From the IMG/VR virus record IMGVR_UViG_3300034279_001861, positions 62,001 to 126,000 of that record: DNA of 64,000 nt; one strand, given 5' to 3'. Below the pieces are notes generated by a model. It saw nothing but the letters and a program-made list of their open reading frames with translations. It was not told the DNA's origin and searched no databases. Shown here in pieces: positions 9,355-62,416 of this stretch; position 1 is the stretch's first letter; the number at the start of each line of letters is the position of its first letter. The stretch comes from a virus. The position numbers and the translations under genes were made by a program.

Positions 9355-9467
9355 GTTTGCTCCTATTTTGCGTATTTTGAAGTAATGTTTAAGACCTTGG
9401 TTTTCGGTATACATTTCATTTGTCGCTGCCCGTCGGTTTAAAACAGGCAGAATAAAAGCTTACGAAA

Positions 9468-9770
9468 CTAACGTCTTCCGTTTCCAGAGACAGTAGCGTA
9501 GCCGTCTCCCCAGCCGCTGCCATCGCCGTAACCGTTGCCGTCGCCAGAGCCGTAGCCGTAGCCGTAGCCGTCGCCGTAGCCGTAGCCGTAGCCGTAGCCG
9601 TAGCCGTTGCCGTAGCCGTAGCCGTTGCCGTCGCCAGAGCCGTAGCCGTAGCCGTTGCCGTCGCCAGAGCCGTTGCCGTGGCCGTAGCCGTAGCCATAGC
9701 CAGAGCCGTCGCCCCAGCCGTCGCCGTAGCCGTTGCCTACTGGTTTAAAATTTTGTTCAACGTTTGGCAT
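9468..9770 (-). CDS. Gly/Tyr-repeat protein, copy 1
   Basis: About 75 residues of this 100-residue protein alternate Gly with Tyr, Asp, Asn, Ser or Trp (GYGYGDGYG type). They are encoded by a hexanucleotide array (GCCGTA/GCCGTC on the plus strand). I chose this frame because the non-repeat ends are shared with four other genes in the window: N-terminal MPNVEQNFKPVG and C-terminal ATVSGNGRR. The repeat also leaves Ala/Val/Thr-rich frames open on both strands; these are shadows. Low-complexity Gly/Tyr proteins can self-associate, but no function is shown here. Confidence 0.75.
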   Translation of the reverse strand: MPNVEQNFKPVGNGYGDGWGDGSGYGYGYGHGNGSGDGNGYGYGSGDGNGYGYGNGYGYGYGYGYGDGYGYGYGSGDGNGYGDGSGWGDGYATVSGNGRR

Positions 9771-9773
9771 TAT

Positions 9774-10097
9774 CTAACTCCTTCTTCCACTGCCAGAAAC
9801 AGTAGCAAAGCCGTAGCCGTAGCCATCACCGTAGCCGCAGCCGTAGCAATAAGCGGCACCGTTGCCGTAGCCAGAGCCGTAGCCGTCGTCAGAGCCATAT
9901 CCTTTGCCGTAGCCAGCGCCGTAGCCAGTGCCGTAGCCGCTGCCGCAACCCCAGCCGCTACCCCATCCGTCGTTGTAGCCCCAGCCGCTGCCCCAGCCGT
10001 TACCGTCGCCGTAGCCATCGCCGTCGCCGTCGCCGTCGCGGTTGCCTACTGGTTTAAACGTATTTGGCAGTACTATCAGTTCTTTTATTTGACTCAT
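9774..10097 (-). CDS. Gly/Tyr-repeat protein, copy 2
   Basis: This 107-residue protein is the direct upstream neighbour of copy 1. Its N-terminus (MSQIKELIVLPNTFKPVGN) differs from the other copies up to the shared FKPVG. Its last 40 residues (from GSDDGYGSGYG to FATVSGSGRRS) are identical to those of the copy at 47034, and the DNA is nearly identical as well. The middle is Trp-rich (NGWGSGWGYNDGWG). The match to a gene 37 kb away points to recombination between copies. Confidence 0.75.
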   Translation of the reverse strand: MSQIKELIVLPNTFKPVGNRDGDGDGDGYGDGNGWGSGWGYNDGWGSGWGCGSGYGTGYGAGYGKGYGSDDGYGSGYGNGAAYCYGCGYGDGYGYGFATVSGSGRRS

Positions 10098-39700: not shown

Positions 39701-41497
39701 TTACTCCTTTGCTCGAGTTACTTTACGAACGACACGTTTTGGGGCTGACACTGCGTCTATTGCATTTTTTGCTTTGAAGCGGTCTCCGGTTTCTGCACAA
39801 ATGCAACCGGCAGCTTCTGCCCATTCCAGCAGATTATCCATCTGCTCTTTATTCTTCTCGTAAGACGGTGTTATCCACTTTGATGCTGTCTTGATATCTA
39901 CTCGCTGCATTTCTGCCAGACGACAGCACGAAGCGATGTCAGCCGGAGTCCAGTACTGATCAGTTGGTAGATCTTGGTCTGCAAGATCGTGTCGCTGCAT
40001 ATACATTTCCCAGGCGTGGCTCTTTGCATCGCTGCCTGGAAACCCAACAAAGAACAAGGCGTCGACACGCCCAGAACGTGTAATCTCGTCTGGCAAGTTT
40101 GCGATGTTATTTGCAGCCGACAAAATCACCGTGCTTTTTTGATCGTTAAACCAAGTTAGCAAAGTGCCAAGCATACGGTTTTCTAGCCCGCCCGACTCAC
40201 CGGATCCGCCCTGCGGCAAGAATCGCTGAAATTCGTCGATACCCAGGATGCCGCCAATTTCTTCGACTGTACGAAGCATGTTAGCTAGAATCTTGTCAGT
40301 GTCGCCAACCCACTTTGAATACAGGTTGCTAGCTTGCATCGAAGAAAGCGGAAGACCGAACTCACCTGAACAGCACTTCATAGTCATTGACTTACCGGTA
40401 CCTGGAACACCAAGCATCAGCACGTGTCGTAACTTAGATCGGTCTGGAACGTCAGGGCTAAAACCGTTTTTAAGGTAAGACTTAAGCCCGTTTAGTCCGA
40501 TGATCGAATCGAATGTATAGAAGTTACGCTCGGGTCGGTAGAGTTTGTTGAAGCTGTCAACTGGCATTGGCTCAAGCCACTGCTCAATCTTTTTGCCGTT
40601 TTGCATGAAACTGATACGAGCTCTAATCTCGTCTTGGTTCACATACTCTTCTGAAAGCATTGTTACGTCGACAGCTTCGCGTAACTCTTCTATCGTTTCT
40701 TCGGGCCATAGTTTGATCGCTTGCTGAAAAGCGGGCGACCAAACATCTAGCTTAGAGCTACGAGACAGGTGTTTGGCTTTTCGGTGAAAAAGGAAACCAG
40801 GATCAAACGAACCTTTTTCCGACAAGGACTCGGCACCGTACTGGTTCACCTTTGCTCGAGACAAACCCGCGGTGGCTTCAATAGACTTATCGCTTACCTC
40901 AGATTCGCTGTCAAGATTTGACAAAAGCGCTTGACGTTCTTCTTCGTCCGGCAAGTTGTGATGAAGAACTTCGAAGTGCTCGACAAGCTCGTAAGGTAAT
41001 TCGACGTCCGGTGCAGTCTGTGCGATCAAAAATACACGAGCGTTTTGACCTTCTAAAATTAGCTTCTGGGTTTGAGCCAGAAGAAACGCATCGACTTGAC
41101 CCCCGGCAGTGCCGTTTGGAAAAAGAAATCGGTCGTAATTCCTAACCAGAACAACAAACTTTTTGACAGACTCGTCCTGCATGTTTTCTAGCGAAACACC
41201 GCTCTGCTCGATTGCAATACGATTACGTGCGTTATTGATCGCAAAATCCATTGCAGCGTACAGTGTAGCTTTTTGTTTGCCAAATGCATCTTCACTTACT
41301 GCCACCGTTTCGCCTTTTATGTCGGTCAGGCCGTCAACCGGATCCCAGTTAAGTAGAATGATACCGTCCGGGCCAGTCGTGTCGACGTTGTCAATTGCAT
41401 AGTTAAGAAGTTCAATGTGAACATCTTCTGGCTCCAGTGATGTTACACATAGCCCGGCTTGACCCGATGCAAGATATTTCAAAATCGTCTTAAGCAT
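39701..41497 (-). CDS. AAA+ ATPase, Ycf46-like
   Basis: This 598-residue protein has a divergent N-terminal P-loop-fold domain without a Walker A, then an AAA+ module: LGVPGTGKSMTMKC (Walker A, near residue 365), ILGIDEFQRFL (Walker B), ILSAANNIANLP (sensor 1) and the arginine-finger region EITRSGRVD. The N-terminal domain (VVLVRNYDRFLFPNG, FLIAQTAPDVELPYEL) matches Ycf46 proteins of cyanobacteria and plastids. DUF2997 and DUF1257 genes lie 1-2 kb away, the same partners found with ycf46/ycf35 elsewhere. It probably remodels a protein or RNP; its substrate is unknown. Confidence 0.8.
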   Translation of the reverse strand: MLKTILKYLASGQAGLCVTSLEPEDVHIELLNYAIDNVDTTGPDGIILLNWDPVDGLTDIKGETVAVSEDAFGKQKATLYAAMDFAINNARNRIAIEQSGVSLENMQDESVKKFVVLVRNYDRFLFPNGTAGGQVDAFLLAQTQKLILEGQNARVFLIAQTAPDVELPYELVEHFEVLHHNLPDEEERQALLSNLDSESEVSDKSIEATAGLSRAKVNQYGAESLSEKGSFDPGFLFHRKAKHLSRSSKLDVWSPAFQQAIKLWPEETIEELREAVDVTMLSEEYVNQDEIRARISFMQNGKKIEQWLEPMPVDSFNKLYRPERNFYTFDSIIGLNGLKSYLKNGFSPDVPDRSKLRHVLMLGVPGTGKSMTMKCCSGEFGLPLSSMQASNLYSKWVGDTDKILANMLRTVEEIGGILGIDEFQRFLPQGGSGESGGLENRMLGTLLTWFNDQKSTVILSAANNIANLPDEITRSGRVDALFFVGFPGSDAKSHAWEMYMQRHDLADQDLPTDQYWTPADIASCCRLAEMQRVDIKTASKWITPSYEKNKEQMDNLLEWAEAAGCICAETGDRFKAKNAIDAVSAPKRVVRKVTRAKE

Positions 41498-41811
41498 TAT
41501 TCTTCTTCTTTCTGTTTAAATTCACCGCAAAAATCTGTTTTCCACTTTACTTTTGTACTGGGGTAACGAGTACAGCGTATTTGCTGTTCGTGTTTGTTCA
41601 TTGCTTCCAGCCAGTTTGATCTCAGTATGTTGTGCACAACTCTATCGAAATTATGCGGCTCAGTCTGCCAACTAAAACACAAAAATCTGTGTGTAGTTTT
41701 TTCCGGAGTATCTGGCGGCTGCTCGCCGCTTGGCGGCGGTATAGTTCTGGCATAACAGCAGTTCTTACACATCTGTCGCATAGGTTTTGGTTTGTCTTCC
41801 TTTAATTTCAT
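41497..41811 (-). CDS. Hypothetical protein with Cys pair (104 aa)
   Basis: The N-terminus has MCKNCCYARTI and a later FLCFSW, possibly a zinc site, with a Pro-rich loop between. The C-terminus has CTRYP and DFCGEF. It overlaps the ATPase start by one base. Confidence 0.6.
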   Translation of the reverse strand: MKLKEDKPKPMRQMCKNCCYARTIPPPSGEQPPDTPEKTTHRFLCFSWQTEPHNFDRVVHNILRSNWLEAMNKHEQQIRCTRYPSTKVKWKTDFCGEFKQKEEE

Positions 41812-41974
41812 AGTAAACGGATTTTGTCATCTCTTCAGCTAGTTTTTCAATTTCTTGGTGATCCCGTGACCAACAAGAAGTATTTTCCCGTTTTGGAAAG
41901 CCAGAATTCCACCATTCTTCGTTTGTGTCTACGCAAGGTGTTTCCGATAGCCCGTCGATTACCACCTGCGTCAT
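41765..41974 (-). CDS. Hypothetical protein (69 aa)
   Basis: A small acidic protein (DTNEEWWNSGFPKRENTSCW) that overlaps the next gene by 47 bases. It is probably real given the direction and a start at ATG 41974, but it has weak support. Not recognised. Confidence 0.5.
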   Translation of the reverse strand: MTQVVIDGLSETPCVDTNEEWWNSGFPKRENTSCWSRDHQEIEKLAEEMTKSVYYEIKGRQTKTYATDV

Positions 41975-41992
41975 TTCGTTGACGATTACTTT

Positions 41993-42187
41993 TCACCAAT
42001 GCAGCGAGAAATTGTCAATGTGATTTACCTGAGCTGTTAGAATAACTTTGTTATCGTTTAGAAAACGTTGACGTATGTCCGGTAAGGCTAAAAGCAACTT
42101 TTGTCGTAACGGTGCGTCTATAGTTTTTTCTTTGACCGCTGCTTGCCTTTTTGCAAGCAGCGGGTAGAACTGATTGTTGTGCGACAC
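41993..42187 (-). CDS. Hypothetical protein (64 aa)
   Basis: A small helical protein (DAPLRQKLLLALPDIRQRF). The start is ATG at 42187, next to the end of the Gly/Tyr-repeat gene. Function unknown. Confidence 0.6.
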   Translation of the reverse strand: MSHNNQFYPLLAKRQAAVKEKTIDAPLRQKLLLALPDIRQRFLNDNKVILTAQVNHIDNFSLHW

Positions 42188-42189
42188 TG

Positions 42190-42441
42190 TTAAACTCTTC
42201 TTCCGCGGCCAGAGACAGTAGCACAGCCGTAGCCGCCGCCATCGCCGTGGCCGTCGCCGTCGCCGTAGCCGTGGCCGTCGCCGTCGCCGTAGCCGTATCC
42301 GTCGCCGTTGCCGTCGCCGTTGCCGTTGCCGTAGCCGTTGCCGTAGCCCCAGCCGTAGCCCCAGCCGTAGCCGTAGCCGTAGCCGTTGCCGTAGCCGTCG
42401 CCACGACCTACTGGTTTAAAACTTTGTTCAACGTTTGGCAT
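42190..42441 (-). CDS. Gly/Tyr-repeat protein, copy 3
   Basis: The 83-residue protein has the family ends (MPNVEQSFKPVGRG and CATVSGRGRRV) around a GYGxGDG array. It contains relatively more Asp and His than the other copies (GHGYGDGDGHGDGGG). The array at 42225-42405 is the same hexanucleotide type. It lies between the DUF2997 gene and the 64-residue gene. Function unknown. Confidence 0.75.
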   Translation of the reverse strand: MPNVEQSFKPVGRGDGYGNGYGYGYGWGYGWGYGNGYGNGNGDGNGDGYGYGDGDGHGYGDGDGHGDGGGYGCATVSGRGRRV

Positions 42442-42638
42442 TACTGTCTAACTCCTACAGCCGCCTTAATTTCAGGTAGGTTATACTCTGGCTTTAGCGT
42501 CTGCTTGTCAGGTTGTTCGCCAATCAACGCGTCTTTTAGCGGTTGCGTTGCCTTGACACAGCTGCCGCCGGTGTAGCCGTTTGCTTCGATGGTTGTGTTA
42601 CCGTCGACAGCTACAATGATTGTGATTATCTTTTCCAT
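42441..42638 (-). CDS. DUF2997 family protein
   Basis: The 65 residues follow DUF2997: IIVAVDGNTTIEANGYTGGSC, an ATQPLKDALIG helix, and a closing LKPEYN. DUF2997 proteins are encoded next to DUF1257 (Ycf35) and a Ycf46 AAA ATPase in cyanobacteria and phages, exactly as here. Function unknown; a small adaptor or regulator of the ATPase is plausible. Confidence 0.75.
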   Translation of the reverse strand: MEKIITIIVAVDGNTTIEANGYTGGSCVKATQPLKDALIGEQPDKQTLKPEYNLPEIKAAVGVRQ

Positions 42639-42639
42639 A

Positions 42640-43338
42640 CTATCTTCCTCTCACTTGGTAAACGATTCGACCGTCAGGTAATTTTTGCTTGCTGACTTGC
42701 CCGTAAGCTGGATTTTGCATTGATTGTTGCCGTTCAATAGCTCTTTCAGTGGCCCTCGCGGCGTAGCTTTGTTTGAGCTCGTTTGCCCAGGCATCTACCC
42801 CACCTTTGCTAGTATGCTGGCCGACGCCCTTCGCCCGAAGCAAACCGTTTCCTTGCGAATAAAAATCAGTCATCATGATGTATTCGCCCTTTTGGAAAGG
42901 ATGCGGTACTAGCCCTATCTCGTAGGCTTGTGGCTTATTTTCCGAAGCTTTGTATCGGATGACATACTGACTATCTTTACTCATGCGATTCTTAACGATG
43001 TTTTCGTATTCGTTACGCACAGAAGAGTTATTGAGGAGCTTTTTTTGAGTCACCAAATCCCAAGGATTGTTCTCGAGATCGCGAGTGTTGACGGGAAGTG
43101 TGACGCCCAGCTCAGCTGCAATCTTAACTAAATCCAAGCCCTTTGCTTTAAGGTTTTCGGCTAGAATTGTTTGGTATACGCCTGGAATCGGGTAGTCTCC
43201 AGCAAGCCGCCCGTGATCGGTAATCCAGGTGCGATACTTTGTACCTTCGACTAACTCGAGTTGAGGACACTGTTTTTCCACAACCTGCTTCAGTGCAGTA
43301 ATATCCTTAACGCAGAAACCATTAACTAAGTGACTCAT
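42640..43338 (-). CDS. DUF1257 (Ycf35-like) protein
   Basis: The N-terminus MSHLVNGFCVKDITALKQVV and the late AYEIGLVPHPFQKGEYIMMTD segment match DUF1257. The 232-residue length is longer than plastid Ycf35 because of a middle insertion around residues 70-125. It is followed two bases later by DUF2997. The pairing with the Ycf46-like ATPase makes a three-part module. Its biochemical role is not known. Confidence 0.7.
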   Translation of the reverse strand: MSHLVNGFCVKDITALKQVVEKQCPQLELVEGTKYRTWITDHGRLAGDYPIPGVYQTILAENLKAKGLDLVKIAAELGVTLPVNTRDLENNPWDLVTQKKLLNNSSVRNEYENIVKNRMSKDSQYVIRYKASENKPQAYEIGLVPHPFQKGEYIMMTDFYSQGNGLLRAKGVGQHTSKGGVDAWANELKQSYAARATERAIERQQSMQNPAYGQVSKQKLPDGRIVYQVRGR

Positions 43339-45128: not shown

Positions 45129-45722
45129 TTACGCCGATTTGTGTTCTTGGTCTTTTTCAATCGTCGCTTTGAAGCCGAAGTTTCCAGCAACGTGATAGCA
45201 GATGATGCCTTCGGGCCGCATGAATCCGACTCTTGCGTGGCTACCTCCCATTTGTAGTTCTTTAAGAGCTTCGTACACTCGGGCAGTGTCGAACAAGCCC
45301 TGATACAAAATAGGAACCAAACCGCAGCACGAAGGCAACCGCTGTTGGTACTTCTCAATTCGAGGGTCTGCGGTTGCAATTCGTTTTGGCTCTTGACCAG
45401 GTAAACACCACCTTGCCACGTTGAAAAGACTCCATCGCTTTTCTCCGTTGGTCAAGCCATACCCTCGCTGGATTCCACTGCCCCACCATTCTCCGAAGTG
45501 CGTACCAGGGCCTAGTTGCATCAATTCATCGCGGTGGGCCTCGGCCCACCCTGCGAATCCGAAATTGTCGTCTTGGGGCGTGATCCATCGCGACCGGCTA
45601 CCGGTCAAAAACTGACCGTCCTCGGTGATGCAGACACAGGCGTTGGTCCCGTCGATCTTTTCCGTAATGATGCACTCTCGAAACATTCGAGGCATTTTCG
45701 GAAACGCTACAAACTCTTTCAT
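45129..45722 (-). CDS. RNA ligase (Rnl2/DRB0094-like nucleotidyltransferase)
   Basis: The catalytic motif I is TEKIDGTNA with Lys 22 as the likely AMP acceptor. Motif III is HFGEWWGSGIQRGYGL, motif IV is PEGIICYH, and motif V ends KATIEKD. At 197 residues it is a minimal nucleotidyltransferase core without a big C-terminal domain. It would seal nicked or broken RNA. A cluster of tRNA-sized structured RNAs lies directly upstream in the same transcript, which suggests but does not prove that these are substrates. AGGAGA precedes ATG 45722. Confidence 0.88.
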   Translation of the reverse strand: MKEFVAFPKMPRMFRECIITEKIDGTNACVCITEDGQFLTGSRSRWITPQDDNFGFAGWAEAHRDELMQLGPGTHFGEWWGSGIQRGYGLTNGEKRWSLFNVARWCLPGQEPKRIATADPRIEKYQQRLPSCCGLVPILYQGLFDTARVYEALKELQMGGSHARVGFMRPEGIICYHVAGNFGFKATIEKDQEHKSA

Positions 45723-46356: not shown

Positions 46357-46656
46357 CTAGACGCCCCAGTTAGCGTCAACCGGGATGCTGAAGATTTCCG
46401 CGTTTTGCGGGATATCGACAGGCTGGTCCAGTTTCTTCAATGTAACCTTACTGCTCTTTGGATCTTTCAGCATCCCGTCGAACCCAATCTGCTCCCACTT
46501 GAAAACGTGTACGGCATTTTGAAGCAAAAGTCTACCGTTTTCTCGTGTCAGATCTCCAGCGAAAATCCATCCGCGATCAACTACGACCACGTGCCGGTTT
46601 CCGGTAGTTTCCCGAACAAACTTTACACCATCAACAATTACAGAATCATTAGCCAC
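46357..46656 (-). CDS. Hypothetical protein (99 aa)
   Basis: A beta-rich protein (DSVIVDGVKFVRETTGNRHV) with a pattern of a small barrel; it ends in TAG. It is the upstream neighbour of the structured RNA cluster. The gap 46657-46758 contains a copy of the 3' region that also follows Gly/Tyr copy 1. Not recognised. Confidence 0.65.
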   Translation of the reverse strand: MANDSVIVDGVKFVRETTGNRHVVVVDRGWIFAGDLTRENGRLLLQNAVHVFKWEQIGFDGMLKDPKSSKVTLKKLDQPVDIPQNAEIFSIPVDANWGV

Positions 46657-46758
46657 AATAAAACCCTTTCAAAAGACTAAACCACTCTGACAACACCGGA
46701 AACATTCTCAGTGTCGCTGCCCGCCGGTTTAAAGCAGGCAGAATAAAATCTTACTAAA

Positions 46759-47031
46759 CTAACGTCTGCCGCTTCCAGAGACAGTAGCAAAGCCGTAGCC
46801 GCAGCCGTCGCCGTCGCCGTTACCGTCGCCGTCGCCGTAACCGTAGCCGTTGCCGTTGCCGTTGCCGTTGCCGCCACCGTTGCCGTCGCTGGTGCCGTAG
46901 CCGTAGCCGTAGCTGCCGCCACCGTAGCCGTTACCGTCGCCGTAGCCGTAGCCGTAGCTGCCGCCACCGTAGCCGTTACCGTCGCCGTAGCCACGACCTA
47001 CTGGTTTAAAACTTTGTTCAACGTTTGGCAT
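46759..47031 (-). CDS. Gly/Tyr-repeat protein, copy 4
   Basis: The 90-residue protein has MPNVEQSFKPVGRG and FATVSGSGRR ends. It includes two copies of GGGSYGYGYGDGNGYG-like units and a GNGNGNGNG stretch. The roughly 50 bases after its stop match those after copy 1 at 9416-9467, so duplication extended past the gene. It is immediately downstream of copy 5. Function unknown. Confidence 0.75.
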   Translation of the reverse strand: MPNVEQSFKPVGRGYGDGNGYGGGSYGYGYGDGNGYGGGSYGYGYGTSDGNGGGNGNGNGNGYGYGDGDGNGDGDGCGYGFATVSGSGRR

Positions 47032-47033
47032 AG

Positions 47034-47312
47034 CTAACTCCTTCTTCCACTGCCAGAAACAGTAGCAAAGCCGTAGCCGTAGCCATCACCGTAGCCGCAG
47101 CCGTAGCAATAAGCGGCACCGTTGCCGTAGCCAGAGCCGTAGCCGTCGTCAGAGCCGTAGCCGTAGCCGTAGCCGTAGCCGTTGCCGTAGCCGTAGCCGT
47201 TGCCGTCGCCAGAGCCGTAGCCGTAGCCGTTGCCGTCGCCAGAGCCGTTGCCGTGGCCGTAGCCGTAGCCATAGCCAGAGCCGTTGCCTACTGGTTTAAA
47301 CGTATTTGGCAT
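47034..47312 (-). CDS. Gly/Tyr-repeat protein, copy 5 (apparent chimera)
   Basis: This 92-residue protein starts MPNTFKPVGNG. Its first half (GSGYGYGYGHGNGSGDGNG) equals a block of copy 1, and its second half (from GSDDGYGSGYGNG) equals copy 2. The gene therefore looks like a recombinant of the adjacent pair at 9.5-10.1 kb. The DNA agrees over long stretches, including the 3' flank. Confidence 0.75.
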   Translation of the reverse strand: MPNTFKPVGNGSGYGYGYGHGNGSGDGNGYGYGSGDGNGYGYGNGYGYGYGYGSDDGYGSGYGNGAAYCYGCGYGDGYGYGFATVSGSGRRS

Positions 47313-59865: not shown

Positions 59866-60272
59866 GCTACGACCTGTACTGTAAATGTGTCTATAAGTGC
59901 GTTATTTGCATTGTTACGTACTTCTACTGTTTGCGGACTTACCTTAGCCGTCAAGGTGCTGTAACAAGTAAACTTAACCCACTGACCAGCTGTTACTGCG
60001 AACGTGCTGCCAGGGCTGTCGGCTACCTGTATCCATGGCGGCGTTGTTGGTTGCCCGTTTGGGTTTAAAGTTGCTTCAGAAGCTGCTACTTGATAGAAAA
60101 GTTGAATATTGGACGGGCTTGTCAAGTTTACAACTTTAAGTGTTACACCGTATGTAAGTAATTTACTGGTGATAGTGCCGCTTGTTGTGCCTAAACTCCA
60201 CTGTATAGCTTCCCAGTCTGGGTTAACAACGCTTGGTGGTTGTACGTTAAACAGACCAGCAAATGGTAACAT
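59862..60272 (-). CDS. Probable virion protein, beta-sandwich-like (136 aa)
   Basis: I start at ATG 60272 ([18 protein letters not shown]), which overlaps the collagen gene's TAA by one base. The sequence is Thr/Val/Ser-rich with alternating strands (GVTLKVVNLTSPSNIQLFYQ, QWVKFTCYSTLTAKV), typical of fibre-tip or decoration domains. It is probably attached to the fibre made by the upstream gene. Confidence 0.65.
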   Translation of the reverse strand: MLPFAGLFNVQPPSVVNPDWEAIQWSLGTTSGTITSKLLTYGVTLKVVNLTSPSNIQLFYQVAASEATLNPNGQPTTPPWIQVADSPGSTFAVTAGQWVKFTCYSTLTAKVSPQTVEVRNNANNALIDTFTVQVVA

Positions 60273-62416
60273 TATATTGTTGTATCTCCAGCTAGTACAA
60301 AGTTGTTTGCACTTCTTTGGATCAGAGACACGACTGCCCATCTACCTGCTGTTTTAGTGTGACTTTGTCTGTTGTTTATGGTTGTACCCGACGCATTAAA
60401 AGTAACTTGACCTGTACCTGACTGTATCACAGTAACCGTAAAACCAACTGGTAAGCCTGTAGGTACCGTTATCGTTATAGCGTTACTGCATTCCAAGACT
60501 ACACCGTTATCACCGGCTCCAAGTGTTCGCGATGCGTTAGCCTCGGTTACAATTATACCTGTACCTGTAACATACTTATTGGAAGTGATACCACCGGTGC
60601 TAAGCATATTAGTGCTAGCGTTGTAACTAAGAGCTGGCGACGTTGTATCGATGTTAGGCGTTTGATTACTCCCGCCCGCCGCCACAAATACAACGTAAAA
60701 CAAAGAATCTGCGTCTGTGGCTGTTGCGTTTATAGCTGTGCTAGGACCCGTCGCACCGGTAGAGCCAGTTACTCCTGTGGCTCCTGTAGTCCCGGCAGCT
60801 CCGTTAGCACCTGTTGGTCCGGTAGCACCTACCGTCCCACTTATGCCTGTGGCACCTTGCGAACCTGTAGCCTGTAACGATAAGACAACTTGGTCTGACG
60901 CGGTGTAAGTTCCGTTTGTAACAATACTCTCTACACTAAAATCAAAATAGGTTGCTTCTTCAGTTACAGCGGTAATTCGATACAAGCCAAAGTTAGTCAC
61001 GTTGTTTATCAACCACGTCTTTATAATGTCGCTAGCTTTAAACGTGTCTAACCATGCCGTCATATCTATGTCATTGTAATTTGACTTTTCAACGTAAATA
61101 TGCTCGACAGCATCCAATACTGCGCTATCAAAATAAACTTGACCGTGGGAAGTTAACGCCATTATCTTGGCAGATTCTATCTCAGTGTCTGCGTAGAAAT
61201 AGCTGTCGTCACCTGTGTGTTTTAAAGGAAATACAGGGGCCTCTGGTGAAAGGTTGCTGTTAAACTCCCAGCTCATCAGAAAATCATTTTCGTCGGGTGT
61301 AGGCGGGCCGGACGGGCCGGGTGGTCCTGTTGGCCCTGTTGGGCCTGTTGGTCCCGAAGGCCCGGTTGAACCTTCGCAACAAGGCCCTTGTGGCCCAACG
61401 GCACCTTGCGGACCTGCAGGACCTATAGGTCCTTGTGGGCCTACGTCACCCTGAGGTCCTTGATAGCCTTGAGGTCCCCGATAGCCTTGAGGTCCCCGAT
61501 AGCCTTGAGGTCCGCGGTATCCCTGCGGCCCGCGATAACCGTAAGGTCCACGGTATCCCTGCGGACCGCGGTACCCGGTTGCTCCCCGACCACCTAGCGG
61601 TCCTTGAGGCCCTGTTGGGCCTTGGTTACCGTCTGGGCCTGGATTGCCGTCTGGGCCTGGATTACCGTCTGGGCCTGGGTTGCCATCTGGGCCTGGATTA
61701 CCGTCTGGACCGCTAGGTCCGGCTGGGCCTTGTGGTCCTTCTGGCCCGCTTGGTCCCGCGGGTCCGGTGGGTCCGGCTGGGCCTTGTGGTCCGTTTGGTC
61801 CTACTGGTCCTTGTGGTCCTTCTGGCCCAACGGGTCCTTCCGGTCCGTCAGGCCCTTGCGGTCCGGCTGGGCCTTGTGGTCCTTCCGGACCTTCTGGACC
61901 TTCGGGTCCTTGCGGCCCCTGTGGGCCTTCTGGTCCTGTTGGACCCTGTGGACCTTGTGGGCCTAACTGCGGGCTGGGTATTCCAAGATTTAAATCAATA
62001 GAGAACGTACAATCGCCAGATTTTGTTACGTCAAGCGAGGCAAACGGAGCTCCGCCGGGGCCTACGGTACTTACAGTGGCACTTCCGCTAATTTCCGGGC
62101 AAGGAAAAGCAATATCCAGCGTAAAGGTGTAATCGCAGCATGCACCTTTAGTTATTATGAGACTAGCGTTTTCTCCACCAATTGGCACTACGGTGGTATC
62201 AACATCGCCCGCACCTATTACAGGACAAATAGGATCGGGATCTAGCATCGGAACCGGCAGCGACGGGCAATCGAAAATATCAGTCGGTGCCTGCGGTACC
62301 TGTGGATTAAGCAGCCAATTACCGCCAGGTATAGGAAAAATACAAGGCACATCGCATTTGATAACATCAAATACAGGTGACTGAGGTCCTTGTGGACACG
62401 GAGTCGTCGGTGCCAT
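60272..62416 (-). CDS. Collagen-like phage fibre protein (714 aa)
   Basis: Residues about 150-373 are uninterrupted Gly-X-Y triplets ([13 protein letters not shown] type), with local sub-repeats GYRGPQ and GPDGNP. A second short Gly-X-Y block is at about 517-559. The N-terminal domain is Cys/Pro-rich ([14 protein letters not shown]). The C-terminal part (about residues 580-714) is a beta-rich domain with [19 protein letters not shown], found at the ends of phage tail fibres. It should form a trimeric stalk with a receptor-binding or tip domain. AAGGAAA precedes the ATG. Confidence 0.85.

Follow-up and report, generated by a model that had tools for sequence, protein, structure and literature searches.

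A phage gene pair encoding a predicted Sm/LSm-fold protein and a hypervariable (Gly-X)n protein

Phage genes that encode arrays of Gly-X dipeptides, (Gly-X)n, are paired with a gene for a small protein of predicted Sm/LSm fold. Combining the two clades of this partner gave 158 loci, and in all 158 of them a (Gly-X)n gene, or the cut-off beginning of one, was adjacent to the partner gene. No described system with such a pair was found in the papers or families searched, and the two-gene module apparently has not been described before. (The literature search on DUF6948 or phage Gly-Tyr repeats found no open-access paper; most subscription papers lie outside its scope.)

The analysis concerned a 64,000-nucleotide stretch of a virus record (here called the window; G000:C1:62001-126000 of a record of 175,160 bp in total). 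The original prediction had described five Gly-X genes with FKPVG...ATVSGxGRR ends at three sites, and these were confirmed. All five open reading frames (ORFs) run along the minus strand, and each encodes an FKPVG motif near the N-terminus, then a Gly-X array, and finally ATVSGxGRR at the C-terminus. A TTYAARCCNGTNGG scan of the whole record returned exactly these five genes, and the reversed control gave 0 matches. They form two tandem pairs (9774 plus 9468 and 47034 plus 46759) and a single copy at 42190. The N-terminus of copy 1 (9774..10097), extended upstream, is MSQIKELIVLPNTFKPVG. The prediction was right about the coding genes, the hexamer steps, the possible self-assembly, and the lack of a known family. 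It overlooked the near-invariant partner gene at 46357-46656 (gene A), the limits of the clades, and the spread of the genes, which extends to hundreds of phage contigs and to several isolates. The features of the window are as follows.

9426..9450, minus strand: hairpin just 3′ of copy 9468, homologous to the hairpin after 46759
9468..9770, minus strand: (Gly-X)n copy 2, 100 aa, second member of the tandem pair with 9774
9774..10097, minus strand: (Gly-X)n copy 1, 107 aa, first member of the tandem pair with 9468
42190..42441, minus strand: (Gly-X)n copy 5, 83 aa, lone copy right after the DUF2997 gene (42441-42638)
46357..46656, minus strand: gene A, 99 aa, predicted Sm/LSm fold, DUF6948 superfamily
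46717..46741, minus strand: hairpin just 3′ of copy 46759, homologous to the hairpin at 9426..9450
46759..47031, minus strand: (Gly-X)n copy 4, 90 aa, second member of the second tandem pair
47034..47312, minus strand: (Gly-X)n copy 3, 92 aa, mosaic

The (Gly-X)n genes of this phage have been duplicated and are mosaic. The 3′ flanks of copies 9468 and 46759, including the hairpins, are homologous, and thus duplication took in a tandem pair along with its 3′ flank. Copy 47034 has an exact 132-bp run in common with the array of copy 9468 and an exact 123-bp run in common with the 3′ end of copy 9774; therefore, the copies recombine among themselves. The minus-strand genes near copy 42190 (39701-43338) encode an AAA ATPase (39701-41497), the DUF2997 protein, and a 232-aa protein (42640-43338). 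Near gene A there is a further RNA-related gene, which encodes an RNA ligase family protein (45129-45722, minus strand; PF09414, E = 4.9e-13). A 714-aa protein (60272-62416, minus strand), in which a long GPx region is collagen-like (Pfam Collagen, E = 2.5e-33), is probably a fiber protein.

A gene-A search of IMG/VR gave 334 relatives, of which 80 were kept and 78, all outside this phage, were read by script. In all 78 of these loci, gene A was followed by a (Gly-X)n gene or by the beginning of one that is cut (71 by script and 7 by eye; in the latter, the (Gly-X)n gene was short, had a GTG start, or was cut). When IMG/VR was searched with the DUF6948-like proteins of the Barba and RcapNL type, a (Gly-X)n gene adjoined the match in 79 of 80 loci, and the remaining locus was cut 70 bases past the match. 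Nearly all FKPVG-type (Gly-X)n relatives in IMG/VR were directly 3′ of gene A. The few for which gene A was not detected were two cut by contig ends, one that followed another array, one with a divergent gene A, and one that is this phage. Here, gene A is downstream of the pair 47034 plus 46759, whereas in other phages it is upstream of the (Gly-X)n gene, and three of the five copies are far from it. Some other phages (L226, L122, L288, and L318) have three or four (Gly-X)n genes beside the partner, comparable to the pairs in the window.

Among relatives, the start of the (Gly-X)n gene coincides with the end of the partner gene or lies no more than about 20 nt from it. In the gene-A clade the (Gly-X)n start is at the partner's stop codon, and in the DUF6948-type clade it lies inside the partner gene, the median distance to the stop being 16 nt. 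The two proteins are thus probably made together. Both the gene overlap and the almost exceptionless pairing speak for a joint function. Fusions of the two genes were looked for, but none was found, so the case for a physical association of the proteins rests on synteny and overlap. The (Gly-X)n proteins of the gene-A clade have the FKPVG leader and a basic, NRxRR-like tail; those of many DUF6948-type loci lack a tail and carry other leaders, FEDSQNTYG being one. The FKPVG and ATVSG ends that had been singled out are real but are a trait of one clade, and what is conserved is the pair of Sm-fold and (Gly-X)n genes.

The pair is present in cultured phages of Eggerthella (PMBT5 gp37 and gp38), Rheinheimera (Barba gp018 and gp017, in a region present in 115 records), and Rhodobacter (RcapNL 00047 and 00046), and in the metagenomic genome MW202613. 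Public records mislabel the (Gly-X)n genes as "adsorption protein" (PMBT5 gp38) or "lamprin" (MW202613), or give the wrong frame, MVMVMV (L231:2782-3108, L234:1728-2042, and L235:1902-2192). Searches of 369 bacterial genomes with PF22253 and of 385 bacterial genomes of another class with the A5 profile, both run without a positive control, found nothing. With the A5 profile, a set of 369 bacterial genomes, which overlaps in part that of the PF22253 search, gave one match (L320), itself near several (Gly-X)n ORFs. The (Gly-X)n ORFs that follow the L320 match are richer in Phe and Ala, and each has an NHTPDPAG-like start.

The partner was assigned to a superfamily by profile and to a likely fold by modeling. 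Aligning gene A (A2) with the DUF6948-type alignment (A4) by hhalign gave a probability of 96.5 and an E value of 9e-10 over 77 columns, which places gene A in the superfamily, and Foldseek matched gene A to named DUF6948 proteins with a probability of 1.00. The Pfam cut-off for PF22253 was not reached: gene A of the window had no match, one relative had an E value of 0.096, RcapNL_00047 scored 22.5 bits (E = 1.3e-4) against a cut-off of 27, and none of the relatives scanned was above it. The AlphaFold2 models of gene A and Barba gp018 had pLDDT values of 87.8 and 89.5, respectively, and when both were compared to the PDB, nearly all of the 50 best rows were Sm/LSm or LSm-containing structures. 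The best Z was 8.0 for gene A (rmsd, 1.6; 61 aligned) and 8.4 for Barba gp018 (rmsd, 3.0; 64 aligned), and the Sm-like structure 3by7 gave Z values of 7.2 and 8.0, respectively; a Z near 8 is modest, and the structure-comparison tool warns that a common arrangement can give such a score. Foldseek again gave Sm/LSm proteins, with a best E value of 0.02 and weaker values for the rest. A sequence-level search of the PDB with the partner found no Sm relative. Because the Z values are modest, the Sm/LSm fold is likely rather than proven, and an Sm-like fold alone does not fix the function.

The (Gly-X)n protein had no convincing match in Pfam or PHROGs, in line with the prediction that it belonged to no known family. 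TrAA12 (PF22807) matched over the repeat region only and was below its cut-off (26.5 versus 30.9 bits), and KRTAP and PHROGs 18306 and 10432 matched weakly over the repeat only; these are matches of composition, not of membership. The search for FKPVG proteins that had been proposed was run as a pattern of FKPVG plus four Gly-X units. It matched 23 stretches in IMG/VR, 21 of which were true members, and 16 stretches in GTDB genomes, none of which was (they were chance GA/GV/GR-type or unrelated frames). A relaxed pattern, F[KR]P[VI]G, added dozens more. Searching for relatives with a (Gly-X)n alignment confirmed 0 of 600 candidates, whereas DNA patterns worked. A tblastn search of INPHARED with the (Gly-X)n protein gave no match, probably because low-complexity filtering removes the query, and the partner gene was therefore used as the query instead.

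At the X positions of 201 distinct arrays, 46% of the residues were Tyr, 24% Asp, 20% Asn, and 4% Ser. The order of X was near random: adjacent identical residues numbered 1,837 versus 1,859 ± 30 in shuffles, with a slight depletion of Tyr-Tyr neighbors (1,115 versus 1,171 ± 18), and since arrays from related loci are not independent, such deviations in composition and order are only indicative. His, Glu, Gln, and Lys were nearly absent at X although they are one base away. Entropy per array fell from 1.36 bits at the first base of X to 0.43 at its second and 0.27 at its third base; at the third base of Gly, which is fourfold synonymous, it was 0.21. The first-base value of X exceeded that of this silent Gly base in 197 of the 201 arrays. 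Because the silent base is the less variable, neutral drift plus slippage would not yield such a pattern. Depending on the phage, the Gly codons of an array are all GGC, all GGG, all GGA, or mostly GGT, yet the protein composition is the same. Thus, with variation concentrated at the amino-acid-changing base and the same protein made from different Gly codons, selection acts on the arrays at the protein level. Each array has grown from a few seed hexamers, with selection keeping X mixed. The composition, dominated by Gly, Tyr, Asn, and Ser (with Asp), the near-random order, and the spread of the aromatic residues are prion-like, as expected of a sticker-spacer low-complexity protein.

The arrays change in hexamer steps. 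Tandem Repeats Finder gave a period of 6 and its multiples, as expected from the hexanucleotide arrays of the original prediction, and the predicted changes in array length were found as well. In 19 allele pairs with near-identical flanks the array content differed, and the length differences were all multiples of 6 bp. Metagenome assemblies may missize repeats, so the isolates carry this argument. A single TACGGC separates Barba1A from Barba15S, with 0 differences in the 315 plus 484 flanking bases; Barba19A and 31A are two hexamers apart; and Barba1A and 31A have quite different arrays, with 1 difference in the 315 bases of the partner gene and 0 in the 484 bases downstream. These differences between isolates answer the objection that the arrays are assembly artifacts. 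The objection that another frame is translated is answered by the 6-bp multiples and by relatives that keep the Gly-X frame with other Gly codons. That Gly-X is the coding frame follows from the conserved ends, its retention with GGG, GGA, and GGT, and its fixed overlap or junction with the partner gene. An on/off switch by phase variation was ruled out, since all length changes keep the frame. A diversity-generating retroelement, an idea suggested by the variable NAC codons, was dropped because the variation is mostly at the first base with little change at the second, which does not fit.

The interpretation that we favor, tentatively and at less than even confidence, is that the Sm-fold and (Gly-X)n proteins form a phage assembly, probably with RNA. 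The module would have a conserved half, the ∼100-aa protein of predicted Sm/LSm fold, and a variable, low-complexity (Gly-X)n half; the two are probably cotranslated, and they probably bind to one another. Most likely, self-association of its Tyr residues would make the (Gly-X)n chain behave as a prion-like polymer of stickers and spacers. Together with its partner, the chain would form a multivalent assembly, and this could plausibly be a condensate in which RNA is concentrated or shielded during infection. The strength of the assembly would be tuned by array length, which changes by whole hexamers and never breaks the frame. We infer complex formation, self-assembly, the RNA cargo, and the timing in infection. 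Self-assembly had been raised as a possibility in the original prediction, and by analogy the synthetic peptide Ac-GYGYGYG-NH2, which forms amyloid-like fibrils (PMC10510724), makes it plausible. The fuller version is possible but more doubtful: an RNP condensate encoded by phages of unrelated hosts, in which an Sm/LSm-fold protein has an obligate, separately encoded, prion-like partner that is hypermutable and is tuned through array length without risk to the frame. Against an assembly, Asp makes a chain less prone to aggregate, and the evidence for amyloid comes from short peptides that carry no charge; in addition, three window copies are far from gene A, which in this phage is downstream.

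Other explanations draw on the same observations. The pair could act in counter-defense, sequestering or shielding something from host immunity, with an arms race driving the variation of the arrays. Array content does shift between fixed flanks and the module is nearly confined to viruses within what was searched, but no PADLOC model matched and the near-random order contains no recognizable target pattern; we consider this role unlikely. It is distinctly unlikely that (Gly-X)n, with alternating aromatic and acidic side chains, imitates single-stranded nucleic acid, occupies the putative RNA site of the partner, and so controls the partner or a host RNA- or DNA-binding protein. Such mimicry would suit the Sm-like predicted fold of the partner and the shares of Tyr and Asp at X, but Glu, equally suited, is nearly absent and many X residues are neutral (Asn and Ser). 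The label of PMBT5 gp38 would point to a structural or adhesive, silk-like protein of the virion or envelope, as would a Gly-Tyr dipeptide composition like that of silk-like proteins and the self-assembly of (GY)n. However, in isolates the neighbors of the pair are replication or regulatory genes (for SSB and a helicase loader, for DNA polymerase, or for a repressor), which argues against a virion part, and the PMBT5 paper says nothing of an adsorption protein in its main text; this explanation is quite improbable.

Two further explanations make the protein incidental or the array neutral. If the GGCNAC hexamer array were a binding site, a decoy, or a regulatory RNA, the strong excess of GGC over background would be accounted for (in the other window genes, 33% of the Gly codons are GGC). 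Such a DNA- or RNA-motif role is highly improbable and was rejected, because the Gly codons differ between arrays that encode the same protein, the variation is at the base that changes the amino acid, and the length changes are in frame. The frequent gain and loss of hexamers would also be seen in a neutral microsatellite hitchhiking beside a conserved gene. There is very little chance of this, given that the pairing was seen in all 158 loci, across great phage distances, and that the composition is constrained.

In the assembly interpretation, phages would make complexes of their own that self-assemble and possibly bind RNA. A module of this kind would be new: one gene for a conserved, folded protein and one for a hypervariable protein of low complexity, paired almost without exception in phages of both Proteobacteria and Actinobacteria. 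It would offer a natural experiment on sticker-spacer proteins, with about 200 distinct arrays of one composition in which order, length, and codons turn over, and DUF6948 would gain a probable fold and a partner. The module is directly testable in the cultured phages Rheinheimera Barba, Eggerthella PMBT5, and Rhodobacter RcapNL.

Four known systems bear comparison. Gene A is homologous by profile and fold to Barba gp018 and RcapNL_00047, which are DUF6948-type (PF22253) phage proteins; gene A itself, however, falls under the Pfam cut-off, and the (Gly-X)n neighbor is absent from the papers searched. The likeness to Sm/LSm proteins, including 3by7 (from an uncultured marine source), is in the predicted fold of the models of both clades. 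It is known here from models, without a sequence match, and the main helix of the model comes after the long strands, not before the barrel. The synthetic, prion-inspired heptapeptide GYGYGYG, which self-assembles into amyloid-like fibrils (PMC10510724, PMC11093263), has the alternating Gly-Tyr pattern of the phage (Gly-X)n proteins, but the phage chains are ∼60 to 140 aa long and about half of their X residues are Asp, Asn, or Ser. Finally, yeast Lsm4 joins an Sm fold to a Q/N-rich, low-complexity region that is linked to P-body assembly and thus to RNA granules (PMC5087693), much as the phage pair brings a predicted Sm fold together with a low-complexity protein. In contrast to Lsm4, the low-complexity part in the phages is a separate, overlapping gene, and its product is Gly/Tyr rich and hypervariable.
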